A stretch of DNA of 29,672 nucleotides from a virus. The stretch is taken from the IMG/VR virus record IMGVR_UViG_3300046758_000205, positions 1 to 29,672 of that record; one strand, 5' to 3'. The translations under genes and the position numbers were made by a program. A model generated the notes under the pieces. It had not been told where the DNA came from, searched no databases, and saw only the letters and a program-made list of their open reading frames with translations. Of this stretch, positions 13,142 through 29,672 are shown piece by piece; position 1 is the stretch's first letter; every line of letters begins with the position of its first letter.

Positions 13142-15077
13142 ATTCTTTTTCAAGCCAATCAAAATCATTTATTCTACGCAAATCTTCAGGGGAATCGGCA
13201 TACTTTTCACCGTAGTTTTTGCCGTGAATAGCCCCTGCAATTGCGTATTCTCCAAATGGCTTATCTGCACCTCGAGTACACCATGCTTCTAGTCTAAAAT
13301 TCGTTTCGTCTTCTTTTTGCCTATGTATTGTTTTACTTGCTAACTTTACACATTCTCTAAAGCCACTACGCCATGCACTAAACGGATCTGTGTTAAAGGC
13401 AGTAGTATTACTCATTACTTCTATTCCTTTGAACTTATTACTAATACTAGTAGTCATATCACTGCTATACACATCCATATTTTTTGTAAGACGTGTTGGT
13501 AATAGTTTTACACCACCATATCCGTAGACTAAGTTGTTAATTGGATTGTAACTACGCCAAACATGCACAGTGTTTTTACCATCAATGTCATAATGCGCAA
13601 TTTGATAATCAAAATTAAAATTATCTATTATATTTGCATCGCCGTCTACTACCCAAAACATTTCAGTCTCTGCTGCTTTTGCAGCCATAATATGTGCTTG
13701 ATGAATACCTTTAATACCGTGTACACGATGTATTACTCTATCAGGAAATTGTTCTACAAGTTTTTTAAAATTTTCATCTGCATTAGGTTCGTTATAACTT
13801 ATAAACACTATGTCATACAGAGACGGTGTTGTTGCTTGTATGTCGTGTTCTTTTTTATTTGCAAAAAATCTATATTCAAATTCTTTTCTGCTTATTCTTA
13901 AATTCTTACTAATTAAAGCTAGGCCATCATAGTACATATTATTTTTAAAAATGTGATGTATATTTCTATTAAAAGAATCGTGATGACTTATGTAAAAATT
14001 AAAGTTAAAATCATCTTTAATGTTTAAATCAGAATAAACCATCCAGAACATATCTTCTTCTATTTCGTTACAAGCATTCATATAATCTTTATAAGAATGT
14101 ACTGCCCATTTTTTAAAACTTTTTGGATAACTTGCTACTATGTCTAATTCATTTTTTGATACATAAAATCTGTGTTCTATTTCTTTTTTAGAAACTTTTT
14201 TATCACGGGGTAATAATACTATACCGTCTCTGTGTTCGCCATTTAGAAATACTTGTACAACATTCTTATTTTGATAAGATACATGATAATCAAAATTGAA
14301 ATCTTCTGCAACTTCTACGTCACTTGGAATAGCCCAGAACATTTCTGTCTGACAATGTTCTAAAGCATTTTCATAATCGCTATAACTATCTACTTTAAAT
14401 TTTTCATAAGGTACAGGATCGCTTGCAATGACTTTTATTTGTTTTTTGTTTGCATAAAATCTATAATCTAATTCTCTCTTGTTAAAATTATAATTCTTTG
14501 GAATCAAACAAACGCCATCCATCATATCACTACTACCGTTACCAAAGACGTGTATATTATCTATACTCCAGTAATCAGGCTTGTAGTTAAATTTAAATGT
14601 ATCTCTAACAATTACATTATTAGGCACAGCCCAAAATAGATCTGTAGTAGATTTTTCTTGTGCTTCTAAAATGTCTTCAGGGGAGTTAATATAAAAATAA
14701 TCAAATTTATCTTTGCCATTATATATGTCATAAAAACATGCAATATAATCTGATTTTACTGTTTTGTAATCGCCTTGTTTTGTTGGTACTAATCTAACTG
14801 TGTTGTATGATTTAACTTTTTTACTATCTTTGTATACCTGAGGAAAAGCATGTATCGCAAGTTCTTGCCCTATTGCAGGTTTATAATACCAAGGAAAACT
14901 TTGTAATACTTCTACATTTGGATCAACTAACCAAACATATTCTTTACTGCTTTCCCATTTGCAAACTTCTTCCTCACTGTTTACAACAGGAAATTGTGTT
15001 AAGATATGATTTTTTAAATAGTCTTGTCCGTTATGTAGATGCTGACCAAATAAATCAAACTTATCAAATATGTTCAT
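13113..15077 (-). CDS. Repeat-containing glycosyltransferase-like protein (654 aa)
   Basis: About five copies of a 100-130-residue unit are visible. The core is FWxVxxDxxIxDDFNFDYxI followed by a hydrophobic VHVF strand and DGxxLLP. Copies start near residues 48, 148, 247, 344 and 473. Only the last has the full VVDGDANI (476-483), with a D-G-D like the metal-binding DxD of GT-A glycosyltransferases. It is preceded by DIVFISYNEPNADENFKKL (422-440) and HGIKGIHQAHIMAAKAAET, a GT2-like nucleotide-sugar-binding half. Earlier copies have DPN, PNN, PSD or YSD there. The protein probably transfers a sugar, with inactive repeats serving for scaffold or binding. It overlaps the start-side glycosyltransferase by 14 bases and the Nudix gene tail to tail. 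Acceptor and donor are unknown. Confidence 0.72.
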   Translation of the reverse strand: MNIFDKFDLFGQHLHNGQDYLKNHILTQFPVVNSEEEVCKWESSKEYVWLVDPNVEVLQSFPWYYKPAIGQELAIHAFPQVYKDSKKVKSYNTVRLVPTKQGDYKTVKSDYIACFYDIYNGKDKFDYFYINSPEDILEAQEKSTTDLFWAVPNNVIVRDTFKFNYKPDYWSIDNIHVFGNGSSDMMDGVCLIPKNYNFNKRELDYRFYANKKQIKVIASDPVPYEKFKVDSYSDYENALEHCQTEMFWAIPSDVEVAEDFNFDYHVSYQNKNVVQVFLNGEHRDGIVLLPRDKKVSKKEIEHRFYVSKNELDIVASYPKSFKKWAVHSYKDYMNACNEIEEDMFWMVYSDLNIKDDFNFNFYISHHDSFNRNIHHIFKNNMYYDGLALISKNLRISRKEFEYRFFANKKEHDIQATTPSLYDIVFISYNEPNADENFKKLVEQFPDRVIHRVHGIKGIHQAHIMAAKAAETEMFWVVDGDANIIDNFNFDYQIAHYDIDGKNTVHVWRSYNPINNLVYGYGGVKLLPTRLTKNMDVYSSDMTTSISNKFKGIEVMSNTTAFNTDPFSAWRSGFRECVKLASKTIHRQKEDETNFRLEAWCTRGADKPFGEYAIAGAIHGKNYGEKYADSPEDLRRINDFDWLEKEFKKSSVQLV

Positions 15078-15675
15078 TATTATTTCCTAATGTAAATGCT
15101 TTAGTACCAATGTGCGCTAACATTTTGCTAGTGTCACAATCAACAAAAACCTTGTAACCATTGTCTCTTGCTAATTTGCAAAACCAAATATCTTCGCCTG
15201 CAAAATTATCTATATCTTCATTATACTGATGGTTAAACCAGGGCTTAGGTAATTTCTTATATACATCAGTTTTTACAAGCATACACCCCATACCGACTGC
15301 ATAGACTTCGTGAAGTCCTCTTGTTTTATTAAGTCTGGTAGGAGGGTTTTCAAAATCAATAAAGGCTACTGTATCATACGGTTTGTATCGAGTGCTATAC
15401 GTACACGCAGTAATATCCTTATTATGCGATAACAATTTCTTAATTATAGTAGGAGGAATATGCATATCACTATCCATCCAAAGTATATAATCGGCACCCA
15501 CGTCCAATGCTTCGTTAACTAACGCATTCCTACTGTTTGCAATTACAGTTCCTAAAACAAAATGCAACGAAAAGTCAATATTCTGTTTTGTTAGATATGA
15601 GGTAAGGTTTGCCAGAGCACGAGCAAAAACAGTATGCACAGTGTCTCTTGCAGGAATGCAAAGAGCAAGTTTCAT
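15064..15675 (-). CDS. GT-A fold glycosyltransferase (GT2-like)
   Basis: This 203-aa protein begins LALCIPARDTVHTVFARALA, with a strand and first helix as in GT2 enzymes. It then has GTVIANSRNALVNEAL (42-57), YILWMDSDMHIPP with the metal-binding DSD at 68-70, a receptor-like strand TACTYSTRYKPYDTVAF, GMGCMLVKTDVYKKL (128-142), GEDIWFCKLARDNGY with the usual acidic ED at about 161-162, and a C-terminal His (188) in MLAHIG. It should transfer a sugar from a nucleotide-sugar donor in the cytoplasm. It starts four bases after the preceding gene's stop and its end overlaps the next glycosyltransferase by 14 bases, so the two are co-translated. Targets may be the phage's own adhesins or host glycans; no evidence decides this. 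Confidence 0.85.
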   Translation of the reverse strand: MKLALCIPARDTVHTVFARALANLTSYLTKQNIDFSLHFVLGTVIANSRNALVNEALDVGADYILWMDSDMHIPPTIIKKLLSHNKDITACTYSTRYKPYDTVAFIDFENPPTRLNKTRGLHEVYAVGMGCMLVKTDVYKKLPKPWFNHQYNEDIDNFAGEDIWFCKLARDNGYKVFVDCDTSKMLAHIGTKAFTLGNNNEHI

Positions 15676-16260: not shown

Positions 16261-16289
16261 ATACTAACATAATATATATCATAGGTCAA
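16261..16289 (-). promoter_or_regulatory. Possible sigma-70-like promoter before the 57-aa gene
   Basis: On the minus strand TTGACC (16289-16284) and TAGTAT (16266-16261) are 17 bases apart. The -35 includes the TGA stop of the S74 gene, as at the kinase promoter. The -10 matches only four of six, so this is weak. Confidence 0.25.
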
Positions 16290-16963
16290 CTGTTTTTTAA
16301 GTCATTTACGATTTCAGTTAATTTTTCAATTTGCGTCTGCTGTTCTTTAATTGCTTCGATTAGCAGTGGAACAAGTTTATCATACTTAACTGTTAGATAT
16401 TGTGAATCAACTGGAGCAGGGCCAACAACTTCAGGTAATACTGCTTTAACTTCTTGAGCACTTACCCCTGTTTGTCTATTAGGATTATCATACCCTAAAC
16501 TTCTAGCAACATTATTTTCAGTGTATAGATATCCGTTTAGTTTTTTAACTTTGTCTAGTGCATCCGGTATTGTACCTTCAAAATCTTTTAAACGCTCATC
16601 TGAATAATATGCTGTAACTTCGCCTGTAGCAGTAAAGTTACCAGTGACTTGCATTTTAGCAGCACCGTTGTCACTTGTACTGCCTACAAGAACGTTACCG
16701 CCGAATGGTGCTAATTTTAACAAGCCACTGTCTTCAACTTCGATGCTTGGAACACCCGACACATCATTAACACTGAAGATAGTGCCTGTTAAACTAGGAG
16801 TAATACTGAACAGTTGTCCAGCACTGCTTTCCCAACTTAGACTGTTGTCATCTAGTACGTTTTGTGTAATAGGATCGTTATCAAATCCTGTAAACACAAT
16901 GCTAGGTAATCCACTTGCATTTCGTTGTGTTGTAATTACAATATCTTTATCACTATTTGCCAT
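16286..16963 (-). CDS. Fibre protein with C-terminal Peptidase_S74 intramolecular chaperone
   Basis: The 225-aa product has a beta-rich N-terminal part (residues 1-115: repeated short strands, with GNVLVGSTSDNG and MQVTGNFTATGEVTAYYS). A Peptidase_S74 domain follows from about 121. SDERLKDFEG gives the Ser121/Lys126 pair with the spacing of the self-cleaving dyad in endosialidase-type chaperones. KKLNGYLYT, GVSAQEVKAVLPEVV (166-180), YLTVKYDKLVPLLIEAI (189-205) and a final coiled coil to 223 complete it. Such domains help trimeric fibres fold and then cut themselves off. The start has a late-type box and an AGGAAA site upstream, giving it its own unit just after the lectin array. The N-terminal part is short for a full fibre, so it may trimerise as a small tip. 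Confidence 0.9.
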   Translation of the reverse strand: MANSDKDIVITTQRNASGLPSIVFTGFDNDPITQNVLDDNSLSWESSAGQLFSITPSLTGTIFSVNDVSGVPSIEVEDSGLLKLAPFGGNVLVGSTSDNGAAKMQVTGNFTATGEVTAYYSDERLKDFEGTIPDALDKVKKLNGYLYTENNVARSLGYDNPNRQTGVSAQEVKAVLPEVVGPAPVDSQYLTVKYDKLVPLLIEAIKEQQTQIEKLTEIVNDLKNS

Positions 16964-17003: not shown

Positions 17004-17699
17004 TTATATATTATATCGAGCTCGTTTGAGTTCAAAATTAGTTGCAATTTCCGTGTCTGACAGTGGTCTATCATATAACGAGCACTGATTAAAAGAACAA
17101 GGAGTTGCCTGTGTTGTTGAAAACCCGCCAGCTACAGAATCTTGTTCTTGATTTAATATCCACGACTCTGTTAGGCTTATGTCATTTGCAGCACTGTATT
17201 GTGCAGCAAAAACACCATTTTTATAATATCGTTGAGAACTACCGGAATGTCTAATTGTGAAACAAAATGTTGTTCCTGAAGTATAACTCAAAGTACTTCC
17301 GGCTTCTAGGGTTTCATTCCACGCCGATATGCCGCTGCCTGACCTTAGAATAAGGTAATTATTGTCAGTGGCGGCTCTTGCCTGACTGTGCAGGTAAGTT
17401 GTTCCGCTTGTAGTATTAATACTTAACCAAGTTTCTATAGTCCATTCAGATCCACTAGTTAAACTATTTAAAGCAGCTTCTGGAAATCTAATATAGGTTG
17501 ATATTTGATTACCCGCATACGTAAGTTCTCCGCCATTGGTTGTAGCATCATAACTTTGAGGTCCTACAAGTGTAGCATTGTTGTTTCCGGCAAGGTCGAT
17601 TACTGTATTGGTTCCATTATAGGATCCGAGGTTTCCTATATCGACCATCCAGATTAATCCATCGGTAACAATTTCTTTATTTCCAAATGATATTCCCAT
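17004..17699 (-). CDS. LamG/concanavalin-like lectin-fold adhesin, paralogue 5 (231 aa)
   Basis: The shortest of five tandem paralogues. The N-terminal tag MGISFGNKEIVTDGLIWMVD is followed directly by a single LamG_3-type domain: VIDLAGNNNATLVG, FPEAALNSLTSGSEWTIETW at about 72-91, HSQARAATDNNYLILRSGSG, a YYKNGVFAAQY turn (159-169) and the closing helix CSLYDRPLSDTEIATNFELK then RARYNI. It lacks the extra N-terminal jelly-roll-like region seen in the longer copies. The fold generally binds sugars or protein ligands, so it probably acts in host recognition on the tail. It is joined to paralogue 4 by TAATG, with GGGAGG about 20 bases upstream of the start. Confidence 0.82.
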   Translation of the reverse strand: MGISFGNKEIVTDGLIWMVDIGNLGSYNGTNTVIDLAGNNNATLVGPQSYDATTNGGELTYAGNQISTYIRFPEAALNSLTSGSEWTIETWLSINTTSGTTYLHSQARAATDNNYLILRSGSGISAWNETLEAGSTLSYTSGTTFCFTIRHSGSSQRYYKNGVFAAQYSAANDISLTESWILNQEQDSVAGGFSTTQATPCSFNQCSLYDRPLSDTEIATNFELKRARYNI

Positions 17700-19093
17700 T
17701 ACGCTATTCCAAACCTCCCTTTTAACATTTGTGTTTGTGTTTTAATTTCGTTGTCGCTTAACCCTCTGTTGTATACACTAAAGTATGCAATATTTCCGTC
17801 CCAGCCACTACTATCGCCGCCATATTCTAAACTTGTGCCTAAGTCTGCTCTTTCGGCACTAAGAGTAAAAGTTCCAGCAGTAGTGTTGTTTTGTACTTGA
17901 CTTACTCCGTTAAGAAATATGTTTCTTGTTTGATAGGTGCTACGTAATGCATAAATTTGCATACTGGTCATTGGTGAACCAATTGTTACCTGTGTGCGTT
18001 GATTTGCATTACAACACCCGGCGGTGTCAAAATACATAGTCTGATTGGACCATCCTGGATGTAAAAATATACCACGTGTAGTACTGTTGTTTGTACTGCC
18101 TGTATAAAATTTAAATGCACTGTTACTACTACCTGCATTGGTTTGCATAGCAAGAAAGATTGTATAACCATTTGTTGACGTAATATCAAAACTATTGCTA
18201 GGATCTCCGTTCCAACGTTTACCGCTGGTTGCAAATGTTGGTGTGCCTCCTACGTCAGTAGTTACGTTATAATGATTTGGCTGAAAATGATGTTTGTTGC
18301 CACTAAGGTCTTTCCATCCACTCATAGGATCTGTAAATAGTTCGGTAAACGGACGTTCGGTTCCATCTACACATTCTACACTAGGTTCAAACCATTGTTG
18401 GTTGGTACTGGTGTTTGTACTGTAATACAAATATGTTCTGTGCATACTTTGAGTATTGTCAGTCCTCCATACAAAATCTCTATTTGGACTTGCAACTTTG
18501 TTGCCGTTTATATCCCATACTCCGCTTTGAGGATGATTGTCTCCTGTTCCACTATTAACAGGCCACACATGACCTATAACCAAATACCAGTCGTTGGCAT
18601 TGCCCCACCAGCCACTGCTTTTCAAATACGGATTTGTGTAGTTTGTACCATTGTCTCTTCCAAGTACACCTACATTTGTTCCGCCGCTGTCTCTTCCGCG
18701 AAGTCCCATATAGAAACTACCGTTACCGGTTGTCTTACGTCTTACCCATGTGGTCCATCTGTACATTTTTTGATTGTTGATAGGAAAGTTTGAACTGTTC
18801 CATCCGCCGTCGGCATTACTAGTTGCATCTTGGTTTGACACATCCCACACAAGAGCTCTGCGGCCCCAAGGATCGGTATCTAATAATCTACTATTACCGT
18901 CACCGTTTTGTCCAAAGAAAGTAGCACCTCCGCTACTAACAGTCCAATTGGAAATTGGTAATGCATTGCCGCCGCCATCAGCTGTCCACTCACCTGCATC
19001 TACATACGATTTATCGTAACTTTGTTTGCTGCTTGCATCTAAACAACAAATCATTCCGTCTATTACTGCTCGTGATCCAAAATTTGTACCCAT
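17699..19093 (-). CDS. LamG-like adhesin, paralogue 4 (464 aa)
   Basis: The N-terminal tag MGTNFGSRAVIDGMICCLDA is shared with the neighbouring copies. Residues about 35-250 form a beta-sandwich-like region with ADGGWNSSNFPINNQKMYRW, TTWVRRKTTGNGSFYMGLRG and a Trp/Gly-rich stretch, closely paralleled in paralogue 2. A LamG-type domain follows (DLSGNKHHFQPNHYN, YTIFLAMQTN, NIFLNGVSQVQ). The end is IAYFSVYNRGLSDNEIKTQT with LKGRFGIA. These are likely carbohydrate-binding receptor-type proteins on the tail. The codons for the final KGRFG contain AAGGGAGG, which lies upstream of the next start and may serve as its ribosome site. Coupled by TAATG at both ends. Confidence 0.82.
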   Translation of the reverse strand: MGTNFGSRAVIDGMICCLDASSKQSYDKSYVDAGEWTADGGGNALPISNWTVSSGGATFFGQNGDGNSRLLDTDPWGRRALVWDVSNQDATSNADGGWNSSNFPINNQKMYRWTTWVRRKTTGNGSFYMGLRGRDSGGTNVGVLGRDNGTNYTNPYLKSSGWWGNANDWYLVIGHVWPVNSGTGDNHPQSGVWDINGNKVASPNRDFVWRTDNTQSMHRTYLYYSTNTSTNQQWFEPSVECVDGTERPFTELFTDPMSGWKDLSGNKHHFQPNHYNVTTDVGGTPTFATSGKRWNGDPSNSFDITSTNGYTIFLAMQTNAGSSNSAFKFYTGSTNNSTTRGIFLHPGWSNQTMYFDTAGCCNANQRTQVTIGSPMTSMQIYALRSTYQTRNIFLNGVSQVQNNTTAGTFTLSAERADLGTSLEYGGDSSGWDGNIAYFSVYNRGLSDNEIKTQTQMLKGRFGIA

Positions 19094-20334
19094 TACTTTC
19101 CAAACCTCGCTCTATCTAATCTAAACTGTGCGACTATTTCATCGGCAGTTAACGCTCTGTTATACACATTACACTTTGCTAGTTTGCCGTTGTATTGATA
19201 GCTGGAGCCGTTGCCGTAACGTCCTATCCAAACTTGATTGTTATTGGTTGATATTGTGCCGGATATGCTTTTACTACTTCTTTGTACACCGTCTATATAT
19301 GTTCGTTTTGTTGATCCGTCGTATGTAGCAACCATATGAAACCAGTCGCTAGTATTTAAAAGACTGCTTGCAGTATACAAACTATCGCTGCTACCGTTAA
19401 TATTAGTTCTATGTACAATATTAGTTCCTTCTTGGAAGAAACTATATTGTGTATTCACACTGCCTTTTTCAAACCAAAACCCATTTTGATTAAGAGCGTT
19501 TGTTTTAATCCAGCATTCCATAGTGTATGTTTGGTTATTTAATTGTTCGTTTGCACCAGCCATTACCCAATAATCTATATCAGCAGTAAAGGACCAACAC
19601 CCGCCACCGTCAGTATCTTCTAAAGGCCTATCGTTTCCAGAACTTGCACCAAAGTAATTTCCAGTAACCATGTCAAACATACGATTATGGTTAGGGTAAA
19701 CACGATAGGAATACGAACCGCCTTTACCGCCAACGGTTTCTTTATCAAAATCATTAGATCCTGCACTGGTCCCGAGTGTAAATCTTGGATTTTTATAATA
19801 AAGTGTACCGCTGCTGGCTAGATAGCTACTACTACATGCACCCGGATATAACAAAGGACGTGCAAAGGCAATACTGTTATTATTGCCTCCAAAACTTACA
19901 GTTTGCCATTTTCCCTTTATACTATTAGTAGCAACACTACCGCCAACTGTTCTTTCTATATTTGCTAGATAATTTACAGTGGGAAAATTATTAGCGTCAC
20001 TTGTTACAAAATAATCAAATGCAAATGTCCAATTTCCAGTTCCTATGTTGATGTCCCAACCTTTGTAATGACATCCTGTATTACCTAAGGTATAACCGTA
20101 AACGATATCTGTACCTGTAACTTCATACCCGCCTATTATTGTACCAATTGGAACACGAAAAAGATTGCCAGTGCCGTCAACTGCCATGTTACCACTAGTT
20201 TGTGTAGTGCCAGGTACTCCCCAGTCTGGACACAAATATAAATTTCTACTTTGACATTTGTCGTTGGCAGCATCTACACTCATTACAAGTGATTCAGCAC
20301 CTCCTGGTATACGTCTTCCCATATTAGCAGCCAT
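19093..20334 (-). CDS. LamG-like adhesin, paralogue 3 (413 aa)
   Basis: The N-terminal tag is variant: MAANMGRRIPGGAESLVMSV then DAANDKCQSRNLY. Residues about 45-190 form a beta-rich region (YTLGNTGCHYKGWDINIG, NWTFAFDYFVTSDANNFPTV, IKGKWQTVSFGGNNNSIAFA) resembling a carbohydrate-binding jelly roll. The C-terminal LamG domain has TYTMECWIKTNALNQNGFWF (about 268-287), DWFHMVATYDGSTKRTYIDG (332-351) and VQRSSKSISGTISTNNNQVW, the classic LamG/concanavalin order. It closes with KLAKCNVYNRALTADEIVAQ then DRARFGK. Likely host-receptor binding; partner unknown. Coupled by TAATG to both neighbours, with GCGAGG inside the last codons as a weak ribosome site for the next gene. Confidence 0.85.
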   Translation of the reverse strand: MAANMGRRIPGGAESLVMSVDAANDKCQSRNLYLCPDWGVPGTTQTSGNMAVDGTGNLFRVPIGTIIGGYEVTGTDIVYGYTLGNTGCHYKGWDINIGTGNWTFAFDYFVTSDANNFPTVNYLANIERTVGGSVATNSIKGKWQTVSFGGNNNSIAFARPLLYPGACSSSYLASSGTLYYKNPRFTLGTSAGSNDFDKETVGGKGGSYSYRVYPNHNRMFDMVTGNYFGASSGNDRPLEDTDGGGCWSFTADIDYWVMAGANEQLNNQTYTMECWIKTNALNQNGFWFEKGSVNTQYSFFQEGTNIVHRTNINGSSDSLYTASSLLNTSDWFHMVATYDGSTKRTYIDGVQRSSKSISGTISTNNNQVWIGRYGNGSSYQYNGKLAKCNVYNRALTADEIVAQFRLDRARFGK

Positions 20335-21773
20335 TATAACCCAACCCTTCCTTTAAGCGACTGATACAGTTTTGTTATTTCTGCGTCAGACAGCACTCTA
20401 TTATAAACCGCTAGATACGCTATATCTCCATTGGTCCATTCACTATTTCCTGGATCGTAATGCATTAATCCGAATCCATTAGGACCTGCACTTCCTCCTG
20501 TGCTATTATTAACAACTTTTGATCCATTTACCCAAAAACTGTATCGATCAGTACTTATGTTACCTGTGGCTGCATATATTCTCCAATCGGTATCAGTGCC
20601 TCCGGCATCAACACCACTAACCCAACCTGCTGCATAATGATTTTCTGTTGTATCACTCCAATGTCCTAGCAGCCAATTATTGATCCTTCCTGAAACTATT
20701 CTTCCTTTTGGACTTCCTCCTGGTGCGTATCTAGTTATTGCAATAACAGTGTAATTTGTACTACTATAATCAAAGCCCATTCTCATTGGAAAATCATGAC
20801 TACTGCTGCCGCTGTATCTCAAAAACTCTACACCGTTTTCTTCTAGATAACTCCAATTGTTCATACCGTTTAAATTATTTATATATCCGTGGCCGCTTCT
20901 TTGTACTCCTATTAGATTTTTTAATCCAAATTTAGCATTTGTAACTAATTGGTTTAGTGAAGGTTCTGTTCCGTCTATTTTATCTATGCGTGGATAAGCA
21001 AACTCTAAAGCACTACTGGTATTAGTTGTGTAAAAATGATACACTCTATTTCTTGCAGTTGTAGTTCCAGATGCCCAACGCTGATCAGCATCTCCACAAT
21101 TTCCGTAATAGTTGTCTATACTTGGCAAATATTCGAGATATCTTGATTCTATATCGCCAACTCTAGGAGCAGAAGTTCCTGGAGTAATATTTGCTTTGAG
21201 TTTATACCATCCTGTTAGAGGATGTCTTCCGCCAGTATAGCCTTCATAATGTACATGTGCTATATGGCAATACCATTGACCTACTTCAAATGCACTTTGA
21301 GCTGGATAAGAAAAGTAAGGATTGCCCTGACTTGCACCGTTGTCATTGCGTATAGGATTTGGAGACATTCCATGATACATTCTACCACCTGTAGCGGTAG
21401 TCGGGCGTCTAACCCATATACTATACCTGTAAGTGTAATTAGTATCTATTGTATAGTAATCGCTGTTCCATCCTCCATCAGCGCCACTAGCAGAGTCAGG
21501 TTGTGTACGCCAAACAACATCAACAACACTTATACTAGGAACATTTCCACTGTACTGACCTTCAGTTGTAAATCCAGTATCTGTTCTAAATTGTTCGCTT
21601 CCACTTCCGTTTGGATTGTATCCAGCAGTACTGCCTGTGCCACTTGTCCATGTTAACCAAGGATTTAAAATATTAGATCTTTGATGTTTCCAAGGATTGC
21701 CGTCTACACTACTAGCATCCCATAGGTGTGTCAATCCGTCTGTTGGCATCTTTAACCCTGTATTTGCTCCCAT
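20334..21773 (-). CDS. LamG-like adhesin, paralogue 2 (479 aa)
   Basis: The N-terminal tag MGANTGLKMPTDGLTHLWDA matches the family. The extended region (about 30-280) shares ADGGWNSDYYTIDTNYTYRY, SIWVRRPTTATGGRMYHGMS and a DGTEPSLNQLVTNAKFG end with paralogue 4, so these two are closest relatives. The C-terminal LamG part has YTVIAITRYAPGGSPKGRIV, DWRIYAATGNISTDRYSFWV and NGSKVVNN, closing IAYLAVYNRVLSDAEITKLY with LKGRVGL. Function by family: sugar or protein binding at the tail tip. Its last codons contain AAAGGAAGGG, 13 bases before the next start, which fits a re-initiation ribosome site. Coupled by TAATG at both ends. Confidence 0.83.
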   Translation of the reverse strand: MGANTGLKMPTDGLTHLWDASSVDGNPWKHQRSNILNPWLTWTSGTGSTAGYNPNGSGSEQFRTDTGFTTEGQYSGNVPSISVVDVVWRTQPDSASGADGGWNSDYYTIDTNYTYRYSIWVRRPTTATGGRMYHGMSPNPIRNDNGASQGNPYFSYPAQSAFEVGQWYCHIAHVHYEGYTGGRHPLTGWYKLKANITPGTSAPRVGDIESRYLEYLPSIDNYYGNCGDADQRWASGTTTARNRVYHFYTTNTSSALEFAYPRIDKIDGTEPSLNQLVTNAKFGLKNLIGVQRSGHGYINNLNGMNNWSYLEENGVEFLRYSGSSSHDFPMRMGFDYSSTNYTVIAITRYAPGGSPKGRIVSGRINNWLLGHWSDTTENHYAAGWVSGVDAGGTDTDWRIYAATGNISTDRYSFWVNGSKVVNNSTGGSAGPNGFGLMHYDPGNSEWTNGDIAYLAVYNRVLSDAEITKLYQSLKGRVGL

Positions 21774-22891
21774 TAGATTCCATACCTCCCTCTTAAACCT
21801 TGAAAATTCTTTTTCATTTCGTTTTCTGTAAGTGCAGTTTCGTAAACTCTAGCCATTGCAATACTGCCTTGAAAACGTTCACCATCTCCGGTTCCATGTC
21901 CACCAATACGTAAAAAATCCCAATCTGTAGGATCAGCAAAACTACCGCTGACAAATTGAGTTACGCCATTAACGCAATATGTAATGCCAGAATTACTTCT
22001 ACTAGCTGCTACATACACCCACTGATTACTCGGTACTGTTAAAGTACTAGCAGTTGCAGGCCACCACATTAACACGTTGCTTGGATTTATATATAGTGCA
22101 TCATCACCAGCTAAATTATGCTGTATTATAGATCTGTATCCGTTATTTGCTTTTGTATCATATATTAACGCTTCGACACTAACACTTGAAATAGTCTTAG
22201 CAGTAAAATTTTGTGTATCCATGTACGAATCTGTGCCATTAAATGTCCAAGCCTTTGTAGTAGCGTTATACGTACAATAGTTTTTGTTTACATGATAGTT
22301 GTTAGCAAGATCAACCGGACATGGCGACCTTCCTTCTTGTACTTTTAGATTTGTATAATACCTTGCTCCACTATAGTCACTGCCGGCATAACCTACATAC
22401 CAGTTAAATGTTCCTGTTGAATTTGTTCTAGTCTGTAAAGTTGCGTATCTATATTGCCATGCAACACCGCCCATTTCGACCTCAGCATTTGCACCATTGG
22501 CTATTCCTGTACCAAAAGATATGTTTCCGCTGCCGTCATATGCACGACTGTGAAACATTCTGTTTGCACCTGTATAATTTTCACTTTCTGCATACCAACC
22601 ACTTAATACAATTGGAACACCAGTAGTAGGTATTGACGGGTTACATTGATATTCGGTATTAGCACCACCTTTGGTTTGTCTTAAAACATAATCGCTGTCT
22701 CCTGGATTGTCTAATTGTACAATATCGTTTTGAGCATTATGTCCGCCACTAGGTGTAGCATCAGTACCGCTCACAAAACTTCCATTGGTCAATAGATTGG
22801 CTCCACGGTTAGTCCAATTTTGCTGACTTGCACCGTCAATAGAAAATATTAAATTTCTATTAACCATACTGCTGTTGTGCATTGTTGCCAT
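21773..22891 (-). CDS. LamG-like adhesin, paralogue 1 (372 aa)
   Basis: First of the five in translation order. The N-terminal tag is divergent: MATMHNSSMVNRNLIFSIDG then ASQQNWTNRGANLL. Residues about 35-190 look like a CBM4/9-type jelly roll: LLTNGSFVSGTDATPSGGHN, VLSGWYAESENYTG, WQYRYATLQTRTNSTGTFNW, then YYTNLKVQEG. The LamG domain (about 205-372) has WTFNGTDSYMDTQNF, SVEALIYDTKANNGYRSIIQ, NQWVYVAASRSNSGITYCVN and GVTQFV, ending IAMARVYETALTENEMKKNF then LRGRYGI. It is likely a sugar-binding adhesin. It starts in TAATG overlap with the 71-aa gene, with AGAGAG nearby as a weak ribosome site. The last codons contain AGGGAGG upstream of paralogue 2's start. Confidence 0.83.
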   Translation of the reverse strand: MATMHNSSMVNRNLIFSIDGASQQNWTNRGANLLTNGSFVSGTDATPSGGHNAQNDIVQLDNPGDSDYVLRQTKGGANTEYQCNPSIPTTGVPIVLSGWYAESENYTGANRMFHSRAYDGSGNISFGTGIANGANAEVEMGGVAWQYRYATLQTRTNSTGTFNWYVGYAGSDYSGARYYTNLKVQEGRSPCPVDLANNYHVNKNYCTYNATTKAWTFNGTDSYMDTQNFTAKTISSVSVEALIYDTKANNGYRSIIQHNLAGDDALYINPSNVLMWWPATASTLTVPSNQWVYVAASRSNSGITYCVNGVTQFVSGSFADPTDWDFLRIGGHGTGDGERFQGSIAMARVYETALTENEMKKNFQGLRGRYGI

Positions 22892-23106
22892 TAAATAAAT
22901 CTCTCTACTTCTACAATATTAAAGTGAGGCAAACTTTTTGTCATGGCTTCCCAATTGTCAAAATATTCTTTGTTCATATCTTGTTCGATCACAGGTATTT
23001 CTTCGTTCCAAATAATGTTACCTTCGAGTGTCTGTATAGTTTTTGTCCACACTAATTCTTCTCTACGGAATATTAATTTACTAGGTTTAGGTGTTACGTT
23101 TAACAT
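22891..23106 (-). CDS. 71-aa protein between fibrinogen-like and lectin genes, function unknown
   Basis: The gene overlaps its upstream neighbour by seven bases (ATGTTAA) and its downstream neighbour by TAATG, so it is translated in the same chain. The product has a basic first third (PKPSKLIFRREELVWTKT), a short beta-like middle (GNIIWNEEIPVIEQDMNKE) and an amphipathic end (YFDNWEAMTKSLPHFNIVEV, then ERFI). No family recognised. The position suggests a small assembly factor for adhesins or a tiny virion component. Real coding status is supported by the tight overlaps and the lack of any competing frame with such fit. Confidence 0.65.
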   Translation of the reverse strand: MLNVTPKPSKLIFRREELVWTKTIQTLEGNIIWNEEIPVIEQDMNKEYFDNWEAMTKSLPHFNIVEVERFI

Positions 23107-23897
23107 ACATAAATTCCTCCGTATTGATGATTATCACCGCCACTACTGTTCCAATATGGTCTGTCTTGATATCCACCGCCTGCAAACCAGTTTCCACTCC
23201 AACAACTTCCGTACCAAAAAGGATTGTTATTGTAATAGGTTGCACAATTTCCGCCGTTGGTATCAACATCGTTATCGAAAGTTGTTAGTCCAAAATTGCC
23301 GGATGCATGATAACCGTACATGCCTGGATAACCTCCGCCTGTGTCATCTTGTAACTGACTAGGACTTAGGAACGAATAAGCACCTGCAATTGATTTGTCT
23401 TGAAAATTAAAATCAGTAAATGTCCATCTAGCACGTTTGGTATGAGAACCGGTTTGATTTAATCTAATGCCGTCAGTTGTACTTACGTATTGGCATACTG
23501 TTACTCGAGAAGTGTCTCTACGTTTACCGAGATATCTCCAAAAGTCTAACCCTACCCAGACGTTGTAAGAATTTAAATTATTTAAATTACTAAAATTAGT
23601 TACAGTAGTATTTGACCCTTGATTAGATCCGCCTGTACGAATGTTTACTTTTTTTACAGCATCGTCCCAACGCAAATTGTTCATACCACCTGTACTACTT
23701 CTATTTGCTAGTACAAGTGCCCAATTTCTGTCAGATTCAAAATCACATTCTATCCAAGTATGACATATACCAGCGGGTGTTCTAATACTGTACCACCCGC
23801 TGGTTGTAATCTCTGAAATGTCAATATGGCCTGTAGGGTTTGGTCTACTTACTTTTGAATAACCTGCACAAAACTGTCTACCGTATAAGGTTGTCAT
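23100..23897 (-). CDS. Fibrinogen-related-domain tail adhesin (265 aa)
   Basis: The protein reads as a fibrinogen C-terminal-like domain (FReD). HIDISEITTSGWYSIRTPAG (24-43), then CHTWIECDFESDRNWALVLA (45-64), mirrors the family's SGVY.I...F.VYCDM...GGW start. TTFDNDVDTNGGNCATYYNN (205-224), then FWYGSCWSGNWFAGGGY (227-243), mirrors the family's Ca-site and pocket region (F.D.DND...GNCA..Y...WW...C....LNG.Y), with Cys218 and Cys232 in the usual disulfide places. Such domains bind acetylated or other sugars in animal lectins (ficolins, intelectins). Here it probably binds a host surface glycan. It starts six bases after the giant fibre's stop, with AAGGAA as ribosome site. The middle, with LRWDDAVKKVNIRTGGS, is not identified. 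Confidence 0.8.
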   Translation of the reverse strand: MTTLYGRQFCAGYSKVSRPNPTGHIDISEITTSGWYSIRTPAGICHTWIECDFESDRNWALVLANRSSTGGMNNLRWDDAVKKVNIRTGGSNQGSNTTVTNFSNLNNLNSYNVWVGLDFWRYLGKRRDTSRVTVCQYVSTTDGIRLNQTGSHTKRARWTFTDFNFQDKSIAGAYSFLSPSQLQDDTGGGYPGMYGYHASGNFGLTTFDNDVDTNGGNCATYYNNNPFWYGSCWSGNWFAGGGYQDRPYWNSSGGDNHQYGGIYVC

Positions 23898-23903
23898 ATA
23901 ATA

Positions 23904-26900
23904 TTATTCCTTGTACTCTGTATCCCATCTGTCAACATCTTTACGTTCACCGTACACAGTATAGAAACAATTAATAGGTCCATCACTTCCAACAATTACA
24001 GTGTTGTCAACAATATCTTCAACCCAAATATCCTGCTTACCACCTATTGCTGTTAAGTTAACAGTAATAGTATCTTCGTGTACAAGGCCAGTCCAATAAT
24101 CAGGTAATTCGATTACATTGGTGTCTTTTAATTTACCACGTACATATACGCCGTCTTCTGGACCTTCAAGAGATCCGTGACGTAATTTCATACCTTCTTT
24201 TGTTGGGTGATCTATAACGAAGCTTTTTGTTGTTGCTGCAAGAGATCCACTAACTTCTAAGACATAGTTAGTACCAGGACTTGTTGTATCACTCTGTCCA
24301 AAGCCTAAACGCATTGCTTTTGCAACAGTCAACTCACCGTCAGTAGTAAGTGCCATTGCACCTTGCGCATCAGAATGACCAGTGTCTAACCAAATAAATC
24401 CTCTAGCATCTGTGTTACTCATTTGGAAACTCATAGCATAATCGCCTAAGCCACCGTATGTGTATCCTGATTTCATACCAATTGAGTATGTGCCGCTATC
24501 CCATACACGTAACTTATCACGTGTCTGCGAACTGTTACCATCTATCAATCCGATGTTGTAGCGTGTAGTGTTAGAAAATCTATCTGGGAATGTACCGGCG
24601 TTAATGTTACTTGCATCGCGATAGAATGCACTGCTTTCTCCGTCTAACAAGTCTGCATCTAGTCCACTACCTGAGCCATCGTTACCACTTGTCCAAACAG
24701 TGTATTCTGTACCATCTGCATTGTGCTTCAAGCCATTTACACCAGCTCCCAAGTCAATGTAGTCGTCGTGTACATCGTTGTAGATACGCACTTTGTTACC
24801 ACTGTCAACAAACTGCATGTAAGCTCTGCGTGTGCCTGCTTGATACCAACTGATGTACGGGTTACCAGTTGCAGAAGTATCTGCCATACGGATCATTTCG
24901 TCGCCTGCGTGACTCATATTTAGTCGACCAGTCATTGTATCGCCGCCAACTGCTACAAATCCAGTGCTATCAATACCGTCTAGTGTGTCAGCGTCAACAT
25001 CTGTTAGTCCACTACCATTACCACTGAATGTGCTTGTACCAATGTTGATGTTACCAAATGTTGTAGTAATTTCACCTGCATCTAGTACACCAGTACCTGT
25101 TAAGTTACCGTACGTGCCGTCGATACGTGCGTTAGGAACAGTACCACTGCTTAAATTACTTGCATTTAGCGATGTTAATCCTGCCCCTGAACCATTATAA
25201 CTACCACCGTATATTGCACCTTGTACACCAAGTCCGCCGTTAATTCTTACAGCACCAGTAGTAGTACTAGAAGCAGCACTAGTATTAGTAAATGTTTTTA
25301 CACCTCCCATACTTTGATTGCCGCCTAGTCTAGCGCCACCAACTGTACCACTTGTAATTTTTCCTGCGTTTAATGATTCTATATTCGAACCGTTACCAGT
25401 AAAGTTGCTAGTTCCAATATCAATGTTTCCAAAGTCAGAAGTAATACTACCAGCGTTTAGTGCGCCAGTGCCTGTGATATCACCTTGGTGTTGTGTTACA
25501 CTTGAAGATGATATAGCTGCATCAGGAACAACACTACTGTCAACTGATGTTATAGCAGAAGCGTTAACACTTGTTAGTCCAGCACCGCTACCAGTAAATA
25601 TACTTGTACCAATGTTTATATTTCCAAAGCCTGTGTTTATACTACCACTGTTTAGTATACCAGTTCCTGTAATACTTGCTTGGTGCTGTGTAACATTTCC
25701 GCTGCTAATACGTGCATTTGCAAATGTACCGCTTGTGATTTGGTTTGCAGCAATGTCGCCCCAGAAATTATCAGCTACTACATCTTTAGCAACACGTAGT
25801 CCGCCTGTAATTTTTACACTTGGCGAATCGTCTGCAAATGTTTCAGTTCTATCAACATTTGTAGCATCTGTAAATGTAACGAAACTATTAGCTGCTAATG
25901 TTGTAAATGCACCTGTGCTTGGAGTAGTATTACCAATTGGTGTATTGTTCAAACTTGGAATTGTAAGTGTACCGTCTACGTTTGCATCGCCATCTATATC
26001 AACACTATGTCTAAATTGTGTTGTACCAGTAGTCTCGCCTATTACTATACTTGTTGCTGCTTGAGCAAACGCTAGTGTTGTAACATTATCTTTTAGTAGA
26101 TTAAATGTACCAGTTTCGTCTGAGTTTATTTGTGTACCATTAACATTTAGATTTCCACTTAATGTAGTTGTAGCATTTCTAATTGTTGTAGTACCTGTTG
26201 TGGCACCAATAGTAATACCTGTACCTGCGCTTGCAAAGTTTACAGTAGTAGCAGTTGCATTTATAAGATTAAATGTACTTGCGTTTGTTGTAATATCACC
26301 GCCATCAACATTTAAATCACCATCTACATCTAAGTTATTGTTTATACTTGTTGTACCTGTTGCGGCACCAATATCAATAGCTGTAGCTGCTCCACCAAAA
26401 TTAATTGTAGTTGCAGTACTATCAAACAATCCCATTGTTGCGCTACTCGCACCAATTCCTGTAGTAAAACTCGGAGATGTAGCAAATGCTAATTTACCAG
26501 ATCCTGTTTCGTCGCTAATTACTCCCCTAAGCTGCGCACTTGTAGTCGAAGCAAACTGACTTAAATTTCCTCTGTTTGCTAATGTACCGCTTGTAGGTAG
26601 TGTTACACTTGTATTACCTGTAGTTGTAAGTCCTAGTGTATGCGCACCAGTATGTGTGAAACTGCCGCCTAATGTAATAGTTTTACTACCATTATTTACA
26701 CCAGTACCACCGTATGTTGCGCCAATTATGCTACCATTCCATGTACCAGTAGCAATAGTTCCTACACTAGTTAAACTACTGTTTACTACTGCACTTCCTA
26801 ATGTTGTACTACTTAAAACGCTAGAGCCATTTATGCGATATGCTTTACTACTTGCTAATTCAAAGTTTTCACTACTGGTCCAGCTATCTGTGGCATTAAT

Positions 26901-29672
26901 CCAATTAATAGTTTTATCAGTTGCACCTTTAAGTGTTATACCACCGCCGTTAGCAGTCGAATCGGTTGGCGAAGCAACAGTTCCTAATTCAATATTTTTA
27001 TCATCAACTTGAAGTGTTGTTGAATTAAGTGTAGTTGTAGTACCATCAACTTGCAAGTTACCAGTTACAGTTAAATCACCAGCAATACCAGTGTTACCAC
27101 TTGCAGCAGCAACAGTAAATTTGTTTAAACTATCGCCAAATGCTAAGTCACCTGTTGCACCAATTTGCATACGCTGAGTGCCTGCTGTGTAAAAATCTAA
27201 CTCGTCGTTGTCAGCACCTGCACTAGTTTCAGCTTCAATCTTTGTATCTTGGTCGACATCTTTTACGCCGCCTAATGAACCCCAGTTAGTTCCGTCGTAG
27301 CCTTCAAAAGTACTATCACTTGTATTGTATCTAATCTGACCTTGTGCATCAGATACTGCAACTCCAGCTTCTCCTGGACGTTCAGCTGATGTACCAACTG
27401 GAATTTGTATTGCTGTGTTACTAGTAAGTTGTAAATATCCCGGTACTATTACATTACCATCTGTATCAAGAGTCATTCTAGTTGTATAAGACTGCTCAAT
27501 ATCGCCTGCTGTACCAGTATCACCTGTTTTTATTATTACAGAACCGCCAGTTGCGCTACCTGTGCTTAGTCCACCTGATAGTATCAAATCGCCAGCAGCA
27601 ATGTTATTACCTATGCCGCTTTCACCTTTTATAGTTGCATCAACTGGTGCTGCACTTGCTTCGGCGCTTCCTAAGATTACATTTCTATTTCTTAATAAAA
27701 GTGTATTTTCTTTAATAATAGTACCGTTTTGTGTTATTGCAGGGTCAGCACTTACGTTTGCATCAACTCTTACAGTAAAAGATGTTGCAGTATCAGATGC
27801 ACCCAGAACTGGCCATGTACCGTCAACATTTGTTATACCACTGCCTGAAATTACTATAGTATCTCCTGCACGTATACCGAGTGTAACAGGAGTAGTTGTA
27901 AATGTAATATTTTGTCCTGTAAGAATACTTCCTGTTAAATTATTACTAAGGAAAACTTCACCCGATGTAGTAACACCCGAAACTGTTGTATTTGCAGGAA
28001 TGTTTCCACTACCTGTAACAAGCATACCAAATAAAATTCCTGTTACATCGCCAAATAATATAACATTTTCAGTATTGGCGCTTGCGTCATTTGTTTGTCT
28101 AGTTACGCTATTTAGATTTACTGTAAGATCTTGGCTAGTTGCTGCTTCGTAACTAACAACGTTATCGGCTATATCCTTGCCTGCGGTAGATGCACCTATT
28201 TTTATATTTTCTGCATCTGAACCAATTTCAAGAGCTGAAACATTTTCGTTGTATACTTGACCAAGTCCTGTACTACTAGATGTAAGTTTTGCACTACCAA
28301 CGTCTAGTCCTTCTGCAAGATCAAGTGCTGTACCCCATTCTGGTACTACTCCGTCTGATTTTAAGAAACTATTTGCTCTACCAATTTCTAGTGTATTCAG
28401 GCTACCAGCTGATTGTGCATAAAGAATATCACCAACTGCATATGTGCTAATATTTGTTCCACCTTTGTTAACTGGAACTAAACTAGTTAAGTTAGCTGGA
28501 TTTAAGAAATATGCACTATCTAGTCCGTCTAATGTACCTGCATCAACAATACCGTCTTTAATAAAGACCTCACCGCTGCCGTTGTCATTTACATTAAATT
28601 GGTTTTGTAAAAATCTACTAGTACCTAGTGTTGAGAATGTTCCAAGTGGATCATAGTCTGCATTAGAAATACCAATGTTAACTGGATCTCCATAAAACTC
28701 GCCGCCTAAACTGCTGCCTGTAAGTGTAATTGGGTTATCGGCTGTTGTTGATTTTTTCAAACTTTGAACAACAGTTTGATAACTACTGTCACCTCTTAGG
28801 AACGTATCACTGTTTGCAACACCTCCGGCACCTAATCTACTTGGAGAAACTGTACCAGAAATAATATTACTTGCGTCAATGTTTGTAACTGCAAGTGTAT
28901 TCCAATTTACCTTTATTCTACTACTTGTATTAATAACAGATGATACTTGAACATTATTTGGAATAATTTCTGCACTGCCTAATCCTTGTGCATCTATATC
29001 TTTTGAATTTGTAACCAACCCGTTGATACTAACTAGAGCATCAGATCTTAGTTCGTGTATAGTAAATGAGTTTGTTGTTACAGATCCTACAAAGAATCTC
29101 GATCCTGATACAACTTCTTCACCTATTATAGAAAATAGTGCATTAGCAGTAGATCCATCACTAAGAGATTCAATTCGTATTGCGTCACCTGTGCTTAATC
29201 CGTGTCCTAATACTGTTAAACTATTGTCAACTTGGTTAACTACTCTTCTTGTAATGTTATGATTATTGTTTGCAGGAGTAGTTAAGAATTCTATTTGATT
29301 TAAAAGACTGAAATCCTCGTATAGTTCGATAGTATTTGAGTCAATGCGCTTGGTATGATAAACTAAACCATTTACCAAACCACCTATTGCAACATTTCCT
29401 AATGTATTATATATAACAGGATCACCGTCAGCAAAAACATGACTAGGTATTGTAATTCTGTAAGTAGTATAATCAACAGCACCGCCACCGGCAACAGTAC
29501 CAGCTAGGAAGTTTTTAGATTCTGCATCGTCTAAATTTACTATTTTACCAGCTTGAACTGCTGCGTTATCTTCCACAAAGTCAATACTTGTTGCACTTGC
29601 AACAAACAATTCTCCTCCTAAAATATTTACATAAGCACGTTTTTCAACTGAAGCAACTTCGATTTGAAATCC
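23904..29672 (-). CDS. Giant repetitive tail fibre, 5'-truncated by window edge
   Basis: The frame is open from the right edge and at least 1922 codons are visible. A TTG at 29609 after GGAGGAG is a possible internal start, but coding continues upstream (GFQIEVASVEKRAYVNILGG), so the true start lies outside. The chain is low in charge and rich in G, T, S, N, with many short beta repeats: TVTGNLQVDGTTTTLNSTTL, DDKNIELGTVASPTDSTANG and SLTSVGTIATGTWNGSIIG (typical of marine phage long fibres), then two repeat sets. The last 115 residues form a conserved terminal domain: SFVIDHPTKEGMKLRHGSLE, GPEDGVYVRGKL, ELPDYWTGLVHEDTITVNLT, AIGGKQDIWV. It is probably a trimeric fibre that reaches the host. 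It is co-transcribed with all downstream adhesin genes. Confidence 0.88.
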   Translation of the reverse strand, partial: GFQIEVASVEKRAYVNILGGELFVASATSIDFVEDNAAVQAGKIVNLDDAESKNFLAGTVAGGGAVDYTTYRITIPSHVFADGDPVIYNTLGNVAIGGLVNGLVYHTKRIDSNTIELYEDFSLLNQIEFLTTPANNNHNITRRVVNQVDNSLTVLGHGLSTGDAIRIESLSDGSTANALFSIIGEEVVSGSRFFVGSVTTNSFTIHELRSDALVSINGLVTNSKDIDAQGLGSAEIIPNNVQVSSVINTSSRIKVNWNTLAVTNIDASNIISGTVSPSRLGAGGVANSDTFLRGDSSYQTVVQSLKKSTTADNPITLTGSSLGGEFYGDPVNIGISNADYDPLGTFSTLGTSRFLQNQFNVNDNGSGEVFIKDGIVDAGTLDGLDSAYFLNPANLTSLVPVNKGGTNISTYAVGDILYAQSAGSLNTLEIGRANSFLKSDGVVPEWGTALDLAEGLDVGSAKLTSSSTGLGQVYNENVSALEIGSDAENIKIGASTAGKDIADNVVSYEAATSQDLTVNLNSVTRQTNDASANTENVILFGDVTGILFGMLVTGSGNIPANTTVSGVTTSGEVFLSNNLTGSILTGQNITFTTTPVTLGIRAGDTIVISGSGITNVDGTWPVLGASDTATSFTVRVDANVSADPAITQNGTIIKENTLLLRNRNVILGSAEASAAPVDATIKGESGIGNNIAAGDLILSGGLSTGSATGGSVIIKTGDTGTAGDIEQSYTTRMTLDTDGNVIVPGYLQLTSNTAIQIPVGTSAERPGEAGVAVSDAQGQIRYNTSDSTFEGYDGTNWGSLGGVKDVDQDTKIEAETSAGADNDELDFYTAGTQRMQIGATGDLAFGDSLNKFTVAAASGNTGIAGDLTVTGNLQVDGTTTTLNSTTLQVDDKNIELGTVASPTDSTANGGGITLKGATDKTINWINATDSWTSSENFELASSKAYRINGSSVLSSTTLGSAVVNSSLTSVGTIATGTWNGSIIGATYGGTGVNNGSKTITLGGSFTHTGAHTLGLTTTGNTSVTLPTSGTLANRGNLSQFASTTSAQLRGVISDETGSGKLAFATSPSFTTGIGASSATMGLFDSTATTINFGGAATAIDIGAATGTTSINNNLDVDGDLNVDGGDITTNASTFNLINATATTVNFASAGTGITIGATTGTTTIRNATTTLSGNLNVNGTQINSDETGTFNLLKDNVTTLAFAQAATSIVIGETTGTTQFRHSVDIDGDANVDGTLTIPSLNNTPIGNTTPSTGAFTTLAANSFVTFTDATNVDRTETFADDSPSVKITGGLRVAKDVVADNFWGDIAANQITSGTFANARISSGNVTQHQASITGTGILNSGSINTGFGNINIGTSIFTGSGAGLTSVNASAITSVDSSVVPDAAISSSSVTQHQGDITGTGALNAGSITSDFGNIDIGTSNFTGNGSNIESLNAGKITSGTVGGARLGGNQSMGGVKTFTNTSAASSTTTGAVRINGGLGVQGAIYGGSYNGSGAGLTSLNASNLSSGTVPNARIDGTYGNLTGTGVLDAGEITTTFGNINIGTSTFSGNGSGLTDVDADTLDGIDSTGFVAVGGDTMTGRLNMSHAGDEMIRMADTSATGNPYISWYQAGTRRAYMQFVDSGNKVRIYNDVHDDYIDLGAGVNGLKHNADGTEYTVWTSGNDGSGSGLDADLLDGESSAFYRDASNINAGTFPDRFSNTTRYNIGLIDGNSSQTRDKLRVWDSGTYSIGMKSGYTYGGLGDYAMSFQMSNTDARGFIWLDTGHSDAQGAMALTTDGELTVAKAMRLGFGQSDTTSPGTNYVLEVSGSLAATTKSFVIDHPTKEGMKLRHGSLEGPEDGVYVRGKLKDTNVIELPDYWTGLVHEDTITVNLTAIGGKQDIWVEDIVDNTVIVGSDGPINCFYTVYGERKDVDRWDTEYKE
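24975..25702 (-). repeat. Three divergent fibre repeats (TGTGxLxAGxI...FGNIxIGTS)
   Basis: Within the fibre, three units of about 45 residues lie near 25548-25702, 25348-25507 and 24975-25118. Each reads as (N/S)VTQHQ..ITGTG.LN.GSI or a variant, followed by FGNI.IGTS.F.G.GS, with similar DNA. The first two keep the leading VTQHQ; the third has a different lead (GTYGNLTGTG). They look like shaft repeats. Confidence 0.75.
25963..26418 (-). repeat. Three fibre repeats (TxxFxxAxTxIxIGxxTGTT)
   Basis: Three units of about 42-56 residues with TTINFGGAATAIDIGAATGT, TTVNFASAGTGITIGATTGT and TTLAFAQAATSIVIGETTGT, each followed by a VDGDLNVDG-like strand. They lie at about 26297-26418, 26130-26258 and 25963-26085. 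They are a common shaft repeat of marine phage fibres. Confidence 0.75.

Follow-up and report, generated by a model that had tools for sequence, protein, structure and literature searches.

In the accessible parts of two studies on jumbo phages and marine T4-like phages, concanavalin-fold domains are tied to tail fibres or other parts of the virion (PMC7824862, PMC7029224), and the host recognition cluster of pelagimyophages is described as variable, with many genes for fibres and glycosyltransferases (PMC7029224). A comparable association is found in IMG/VR record IMGVR_UViG_3300046758_000205, a virus fragment of 29,672 bases analysed as a whole (hereafter, the window), where five genes for LamG/concanavalin-like proteins lie head to tail near a long tail-fibre-like gene. 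Unlike the window, the relevant passages of these two papers contain no head-to-tail array of separate genes, no nested inserts and no overlap junctions carrying a ribosome-binding site (RBS). With reasonable but by no means full confidence, we read the locus as a tail-fibre-associated array of translation-coupled lectin cassettes.

Another point of comparison is the Schizotequatroviruses, whose fibre region (195-205 kb) is, in the part of the source available, a recombination hotspot with fibre exchange tied to receptor use (PMC12028318). In phage D479 of this group a LamG-bearing protein adjoins the distal subunit of the long tail fibre, similar to the fibre-linked LamG genes of the window. 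However, the region as presented there has no row of small cassettes but a small number of long fibre genes, and the protein inferred to bind LamB is T4 gp37-like, not LamG (PMC12028318). Flavobacterium phage immuto has a one-base overlap between a tail-fiber-like gene and a LamG gene, after which come a second LamG gene and then a longer one; compared with the window, immuto has two short LamG genes plus one of 458 amino acids (aa), and the first junction alone overlaps. The first of these LamG genes is annotated 'structural protein', an annotation whose basis was not found in the literature searched. Cyanophages S-PM2 and S-SKS1 carry the same LamG profile in structural proteins but, unlike the window, with several LamGs fused within 960-1058 aa. 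As for the junctions, coupling is established for overlapping genes whose upstream member contains a Shine-Dalgarno (SD) sequence, and the termination-reinitiation pairs covered by the accessible parts of two sources show -1 or -4 overlaps of this kind, as does the window (PMC6728339, PMC10666635). The window differs from known coupled pairs in that its SD sequence forms part of the codons for a conserved C-terminal motif, and this motif belongs to a cassette that is repeated and exchangeable. The open-licence literature searched yielded no paper recognizable as a description of phage LamG genes in tandem arrays or with nested inserts.

The five open reading frames (ORFs) are all on the minus strand and run from position 22891 down to 17004, with sizes of 372, 479, 413, 464 and 231 aa in turn and no gene between them. 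Positions, sizes and the lack of an intervening gene agree with an earlier note on this DNA, as does the one-base TAATG overlap, which can be read at 4/4 internal junctions. Genes and junctions are the following (A4 and A5 are insert families):

21773..22891, minus strand: array gene 1, 372 aa; LamG strand 1 at about residues 1-26, remainder at 197-372, insert at about 27-196
20334..21773, minus strand: array gene 2, 479 aa; LamG with an A4-type insert at about 27-290
19093..20334, minus strand: array gene 3, 413 aa; LamG with an A5-type insert at about 27-238
17699..19093, minus strand: array gene 4, 464 aa; LamG with an A4-type insert at about 27-256
17004..17699, minus strand: array gene 5, 231 aa; insert-free LamG that closes the run, with CGA as terminal Arg codon and without a gene overlapping its end
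21765..21790, minus strand: junction 372/479, GGGAGG then TAATG overlap
20326..20351, minus strand: junction 479/413, GGAAGG then TAATG overlap
19085..19110, minus strand: junction 413/464, GCGAGG then TAATG overlap
17690..17715, minus strand: junction 464/231, GGGAGG (Arg AGG) then TAATG overlap

Since 3/19 other same-strand neighbour pairs of the window also overlap by one base, this type of junction is used outside the array in the same phage as well.

The assignment of all five proteins to the LamG/concanavalin type is borne out by a LamG profile that each of them matches, built from 56 insert-free single-domain relatives (205-262 aa) that all come from outside the window. At Pfam's curated cut-offs, the 413-aa (E 1.3e-23) and 372-aa proteins pass for Laminin_G_3 and the 231-aa protein lies at the Pentaxin cut-off, with the 479- and 464-aa proteins falling below cut-off in Laminin_G_3 and the sialidase N-terminal (concanavalin type) family, the 464-aa protein being of the sialidase type. 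The profile consensus begins MAISYGPKIVTDGLVLALDAANTKSYPGSGTTWTDLSGNGNNGTL and finishes YNRALTAAEIQQNFNALRGRFGI. Because both of the terminal 'tags' singled out in the earlier note thus occur in the consensus of proteins with no insert, they correspond to the two ends of one ordinary LamG domain; by this comparison the 'constant ends' are its first strand, and its last strand plus helix.

The same profile reveals how the longer proteins are built. Among 198 distinct LamG ORFs from viral loci (numbered here with an L), 106/126 of those of at most 275 aa give a continuous match, and 48/68 of those of at least 330 aa give a split one, with about 26 residues at the profile start and the match resuming, past the insert, at about profile position 24-67; one of the 48 (L017) consists of two whole LamGs, leaving 47. 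Within the window, the 372- and 464-aa proteins are split and the 231-aa protein is continuous. A profile of the first strand alone scores 17.1, 15.7, 17.5 and 27.0 bits in the 372-, 479-, 413- and 464-aa proteins, respectively, and reaches at least 10 bits in 56/68 long LamG proteins, compared with 3/565 control ORFs and 1/1360 shuffles. The long proteins that lack this strand mostly open with a different module, of MANSDKN type, followed by a whole LamG. For the LamG of each of the 479-, 413- and 464-aa proteins an insert-free relative exists at 46-48% identity, that of the 464-aa protein being 46% identical to a single LamG in L119. Four of the proteins are therefore read, from the profile matches, as carrying a separate domain nested after strand 1, and the 231-aa protein as carrying none.

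These nested domains are of several kinds: the 464- and 479-aa proteins share family A4, the 413-aa protein has A5, and the 372-aa protein has a third kind, with a match at E 1e-11 to phrog_16097, whose name is 'hinge connector of long tail fiber'. None of the four has a Pfam match up to E 1, and sequence searches of the PDB returned six matches for A4 (best E 0.05, none credible) and none for A5. Family A4 has 127 relatives in viral contigs, from which 80 loci were kept. Its 68 distinct ORFs comprise 20 nested in LamG, 13 placed before LamG otherwise, 32 without LamG after the insert and 3 that are cut, the 32 being an upper figure because at least two of them, L273 and L275 (of the 442-aa type), possess both the N-strand and an end resembling that of LamG. 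A5 is nested in LamG in 15/16. Such a spread over contexts indicates that the inserts are domains in their own right. When the 464-aa protein was used as the sole query against viral contigs it found no relative, which reflects a limit of the pattern search, since alignment later found the insert family.

Inserts and LamG cores moreover swap independently. The 434-aa protein of L039 combines a 479-type insert (48% identity over 253 aa) with a 372-type LamG (53% over 167 aa), its other comparisons with the 479- and 372-aa proteins being at chance level. The 544-aa protein of L039 and the 526-aa protein of L111 share about 97% of their DNA from the insert into the first part of LamG, then differ in the core and end in 12 identical residues; their middles are 95% and their LamGs 33% identical. 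Likewise, the 413-aa protein and its 416-aa counterpart in L002 share 97% of the middle and 75% of LamG. Of 108 discordant insert/LamG pairs listed, some rest on short matches, and the named pairs with long alignments alone are used here.

Structure models, proposed in the earlier note for the whole set, were made for two of the five proteins; both are concanavalin-like and of low confidence (464 aa: predicted local distance difference test, pLDDT, 57, and predicted template-modelling score, pTM, 0.53; 413 aa: pLDDT 59, pTM 0.54). In the 413-aa model, 195 residues spread over 8-405 align to the 206-residue domain 4 of AbnA (5hon_A; Z 18.1, root-mean-square deviation, rmsd, 3.4), and VIA aligns 194 residues to 5hp6 (Z 18.9, rmsd 3.0). 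For the 464-aa model, VIA aligns 199 residues over 8-460 to the concanavalin-like subdomain of 3n7j (Z 15.8, rmsd 3.3). Since these alignments span both ends, strand 1 and the C-terminal part would form one lectin domain with the insert looped out, and a jelly-roll closed by N- and C-terminal strands is indeed seen in the two modelled proteins. The LamG profile also matches, by sequence in the PDB, solved sialidase lectin domains, pentraxins, an S-layer domain and AbnA domain 4. Judging from these relatives, the array proteins may bind glycans. The top Foldseek and VIA rows are mostly clostridial neurotoxin binding domains, which we take as a sign of the common concanavalin-like fold and of nothing concerning function.

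Besides closing the lectin domain, the end of each array gene probably doubles as the RBS of the next. The SD-like motifs GGGAGG, GGAAGG, GCGAGG and GGGAGG precede the four internal starts and lie inside the upstream genes, and the conserved C-terminal Arg is encoded by AGG at 4/4 internal ends and by CGA in the last gene, AGG making up 16/319 Arg codons across the 22 window genes. This codon choice was followed in two samples. In loci fetched without selection for the junction, AGG is found at 14/20 gene ends with a TAATG overlap, 18/35 with ATGA and 13/105 without overlap (Fisher p 2e-9, an optimistic figure), against a background of 193/1388. In loci selected by a DNA pattern for the junction, which accepted any Arg codon, it is found at 95/114 TAATG ends and 17/63 ends without overlap. 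It is the concentration of AGG where the next gene overlaps that points to a role in initiation. Termination-reinitiation pairs are recognized by a stop-start overlap of 1 or 4 nt, and an overlap of 1 nt is present at all four internal junctions (4/4), and translation may accordingly be coupled along the array.

Comparison with related loci further indicates that whole cassettes are gained, lost and reordered. The window row is 372-479-413-464-231. In L002, whose flanking proteins from the downstream Peptidase_S74 (S74) gene to the tail sheath are 96-100% identical to those of the window, the row reads 372 (88%), 404 (new), 484 (479-type, 64%), 416 (413-type, 86%) and 232 (another LamG), and the 464-aa gene is missing. 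A 65-nucleotide (nt) spacer lies between the 416- and 232-aa genes (L002:6240-6304), the other internal array junctions of L002 being overlaps; it is possibly the scar of a lost cassette. In L288-L290, with flanks as in the window, the row is 473 (479-type), 414 (413-type), 230 (231-type), 291 and 245. The rows of L032 (412-220-242-442-232) and L123 (413-242-442-221-407-372), whose DNA is 97% identical downstream, differ in that the 220/221-aa gene has shifted from second to fourth place and one last gene (232) is replaced by two (407 and 372), which correspond to the 404- and 372-aa genes of L002 in reversed order. All compared rows (L002, L288, L032, L123) lie between the fibre end and the S74 gene. 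The ends of homologous blocks fall 16, 20, 5 and 10 nt from gene ends between the window and L002, and 17, 3, 34, 2, 8 and 4 nt between L032 and L123, that is, at most 34 nt away in 10/10 (35 nt in the partner's coordinates), a count of within-array ends that leaves out fibre-internal blocks and an internally repeated gene. The 44-nt junctions are also alike, with a mean local score of 17.2 over 21 pairs compared with 6.2 for random array pairs. In five more distant contigs, L005-L008 and L014, found via the glycosyltransferase gene and about 48-81% identical in the core, no LamG genes lie between the fibre end and the conserved genes, although little or none of the fibre-to-core stretch is covered in L014 and L007.

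Tandem LamG genes are, by these searches, common in aquatic viral contigs, and five in a row is not exceptional. A DNA pattern of a LamG end plus TAATG recovered 110 stretches in viral contigs, nearly all of them LamG genes on inspection, and the junction-selected loci include a run of ten (L044) and a run of six (L113). L044 has ten LamG genes in a row, with one-base overlaps at 7/9 junctions. Of 77 loci taken without such selection, 57 contain a run of two or more LamG genes, and three runs of six occur; to call five copies a striking expansion, as the earlier note did, was thus an overstatement.

The array sits in a tail-fibre module, with a long fibre gene upstream and an S74 gene downstream, an arrangement kept in L002, L032, L123 and L288-L290. 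Its neighbours are:

23904..29672, minus strand: long tail-fibre-like protein, truncated where the record ends (1922 aa visible), flanking the array on its 5' side
23100..23897, minus strand: 265-aa gene between fibre and array, 80% identical to its L002 counterpart
22891..23106, minus strand: 71-aa gene without a family match, joined to array gene 1 by a TAATG overlap
16286..16963, minus strand: 225-aa MANSDKD protein bearing a Peptidase_S74 chaperone domain, flanking the array on its 3' side

The long fibre protein matches PHROG families that include tail and tail fiber, and the S74 protein (Pfam E 2e-11; 96% identical in L002, 84% in L288) matches PHROG tail fibre families. A fibre-end domain of the window type lies upstream of 34/120 distinct LamG runs and downstream of 0/120. 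Neither Pfam nor PHROG gives a match for the 265-aa gene, whose C-terminal end (...WNSSGGDNHQYGGIYVC) resembles, by eye, that of certain MANSDKN proteins from L025, L037 and L077 (...DSSTSDYHSYGALYVR). Further along, the tail sheath (5038-8349, minus strand) is unusually long at 1103 aa and closest to those of jumbo phages of the Atu_ph07, Phosso and PA5oct type (about 42-44% identity), Agrobacterium phage Atu_ph07 being the best match. The annotation of Atu_ph07 from 96 to 125 kb names no tail-fibre or lectin product, its DNA not having been searched with the LamG profile, and the phage collection contains no near DNA match of 12-24 kb. The structural region also encodes a protein matching a PHROG named galactose-3-O-sulfotransferase (1083-1661, minus strand; E 2.7e-9) and a glycosyltransferase-like protein (15064-15675, minus strand), for which a parallel is reported in the host recognition clusters of other marine myophages. 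After the glycosyltransferase comes a 654-aa gene (13113-15077, minus strand) with counterparts of 869 aa in L032 and 1268 aa in L005; the L032/L123 DNA comparison shows internal repeats at this position, that is, a protein variable in repeat number adjoining the array.

Alternatively, the array products could be decoration proteins that bind particles, mucus or algal glycans instead of the host receptor, carried on fibre, tail or head. PHROG 8510, which is matched by the 231-, 413- and 372-aa proteins, is filed under head and packaging as a 'virion structural protein', and jumbo phages are described, in the part of the study at hand, as bearing lectin domains on head and tail decorations (PMC7824862). 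The position between the fibre and S74 genes and the long-tail-fibre match of the 372-aa protein's insert speak against this explanation, which we consider unlikely but deserving of some weight.

The overlaps could also hold the stoichiometry of LamG subunits in one hetero-oligomeric fibre or tip, with turnover simply following the divergence of the whole tail region. Translation is coupled by overlaps of -1 or -4, which genes for the subunits of heteromeric complexes show more often than expected, according to the accessible parts of two sources (PMC10666635, PMC6728339). In agreement with this, LamG-LamG junctions in the unselected loci overlap in 61/102 cases (21/102 by one base and 40/102 by four) compared with 83/575 for other gene pairs (40/575 and 43/575, respectively). 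However, gene number, order and identity are not the same even in relatives that share 95-97% of their flanking DNA, which fits a fixed complex poorly and makes this explanation rather improbable.

The proposal of the earlier note, that constant ends serve as a docking site for variable binding domains in the middle, appears less probable still. The ends are the most alike parts among the window paralogues, albeit loosely: the 'MGxNxG' tag is not kept in the 372-aa protein, which starts MATMHN, or the 413-aa protein, which starts MAANMG, and the shared C-terminal end in fact reads RGRYGI, KGRVGL, RARFGK, KGRFGIA and RARYNI. The middles do differ insofar as the 372- and 413-aa proteins have their own kinds, but those of the 464- and 479-aa proteins are homologous and the 231-aa protein has none. 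The note had named middles as similar as the ends as grounds for giving up the idea, and for the 464/479 pair the middles (28-31%) come close to LamG (33-34%). Furthermore, both ends are edges of a single LamG domain, insert-free copies exist (the 231-aa protein and the short proteins with a continuous match), and the LamG core can be exchanged under a constant insert. Between relatives the middle can also be more constant than LamG, which is itself variable. What does stand of the cassette idea is a set of exchangeable lectin-fold genes in the tail-fibre region, subject to gain, loss, reordering and swaps, with the cassette being a whole LamG gene with an optional nested domain. A better candidate for shared attachment is the MANSDKN-type module, of about 100 residues, which opens the S74 gene, also heads some LamG proteins of other phages and is present in none of the five array proteins. 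In L032, L037, L096, L116 and L125 it precedes whole LamG domains or other ends.

That the products are non-virion proteins, such as enzymes or intracellular factors, that happen to lie in the fibre region is a slight prospect, against which stand the fibre context and the isolate relatives annotated as structural proteins (the basis of that annotation not having been seen).

Several observations weigh against the reading as a fibre-associated array of coupled lectin cassettes. The phage is known here from metagenomic sequence alone. No fibre-end domain is seen upstream of 86/120 LamG runs, 23 of which have no upstream sequence. The whole-domain profile missed strand 1 in the 413- and 479-aa proteins, where it matched the C-terminal part only and the N-strand profile alone saw strand 1; the models are of low confidence, strand 1 itself having pLDDT 65 (464 aa) and 49 (413 aa). 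LamG folds need not bind glycans. In the junction-selected sample AGG occurs at only 1/10 ATGA overlaps, which speaks against an SD role for that type, and because related phages are not independent the p-values are optimistic. Lastly, the conserved junction sets the resolution at which breakpoints can be located, and those of L039/L111 fall within a gene.

The sequence itself shows the anatomy of the genes, the turnover of cassettes, the module swaps and the codon bias. With the points against it taken into account, the array of coupled lectin cassettes would work as follows. Each gene encodes one LamG/concanavalin domain, in four of five with a second domain nested in the loop after strand 1, and its 3' end would encode three things: the closing strand and helix of the lectin, the RBS of the next gene (Arg AGG) and the TAATG start. 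Each cassette would bring its neighbour's RBS and a similar junction of about 40 nt, so that whole cassettes could be moved, gained or lost with expression intact, and recombination in conserved stretches within the domain would swap LamG cores or inserts. The products would most likely be on the virion near the long tail fibre, binding glycans of the host or of the surroundings, and their exchange may affect host range. More speculatively, in a version that we put forward as a tentative possibility, the junction of about 40 nt would be a dual-coded adaptor that closes one lectin, gives the RBS and overlapping start, opens the next and is alike enough from gene to gene to guide recombination, such that any cassette could be plugged in anywhere in the row and translated in step. 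This would amount to an 'adhesin cassette array' that needs no dedicated recombinase and in which a fixed insertion loop within the lectin fold offers a further level of exchange.

If the cassette reading is true, phages of aquatic microbes would change their adhesive surface by trading small whole genes instead of rebuilding one long fibre, and a protein motif, the LamG end KGRxG, would be tied to a translation signal. The case also cautions against taking conserved protein ends for docking tags. Cassette, insert and junction would then be concrete units for linking phage genotype to attachment.

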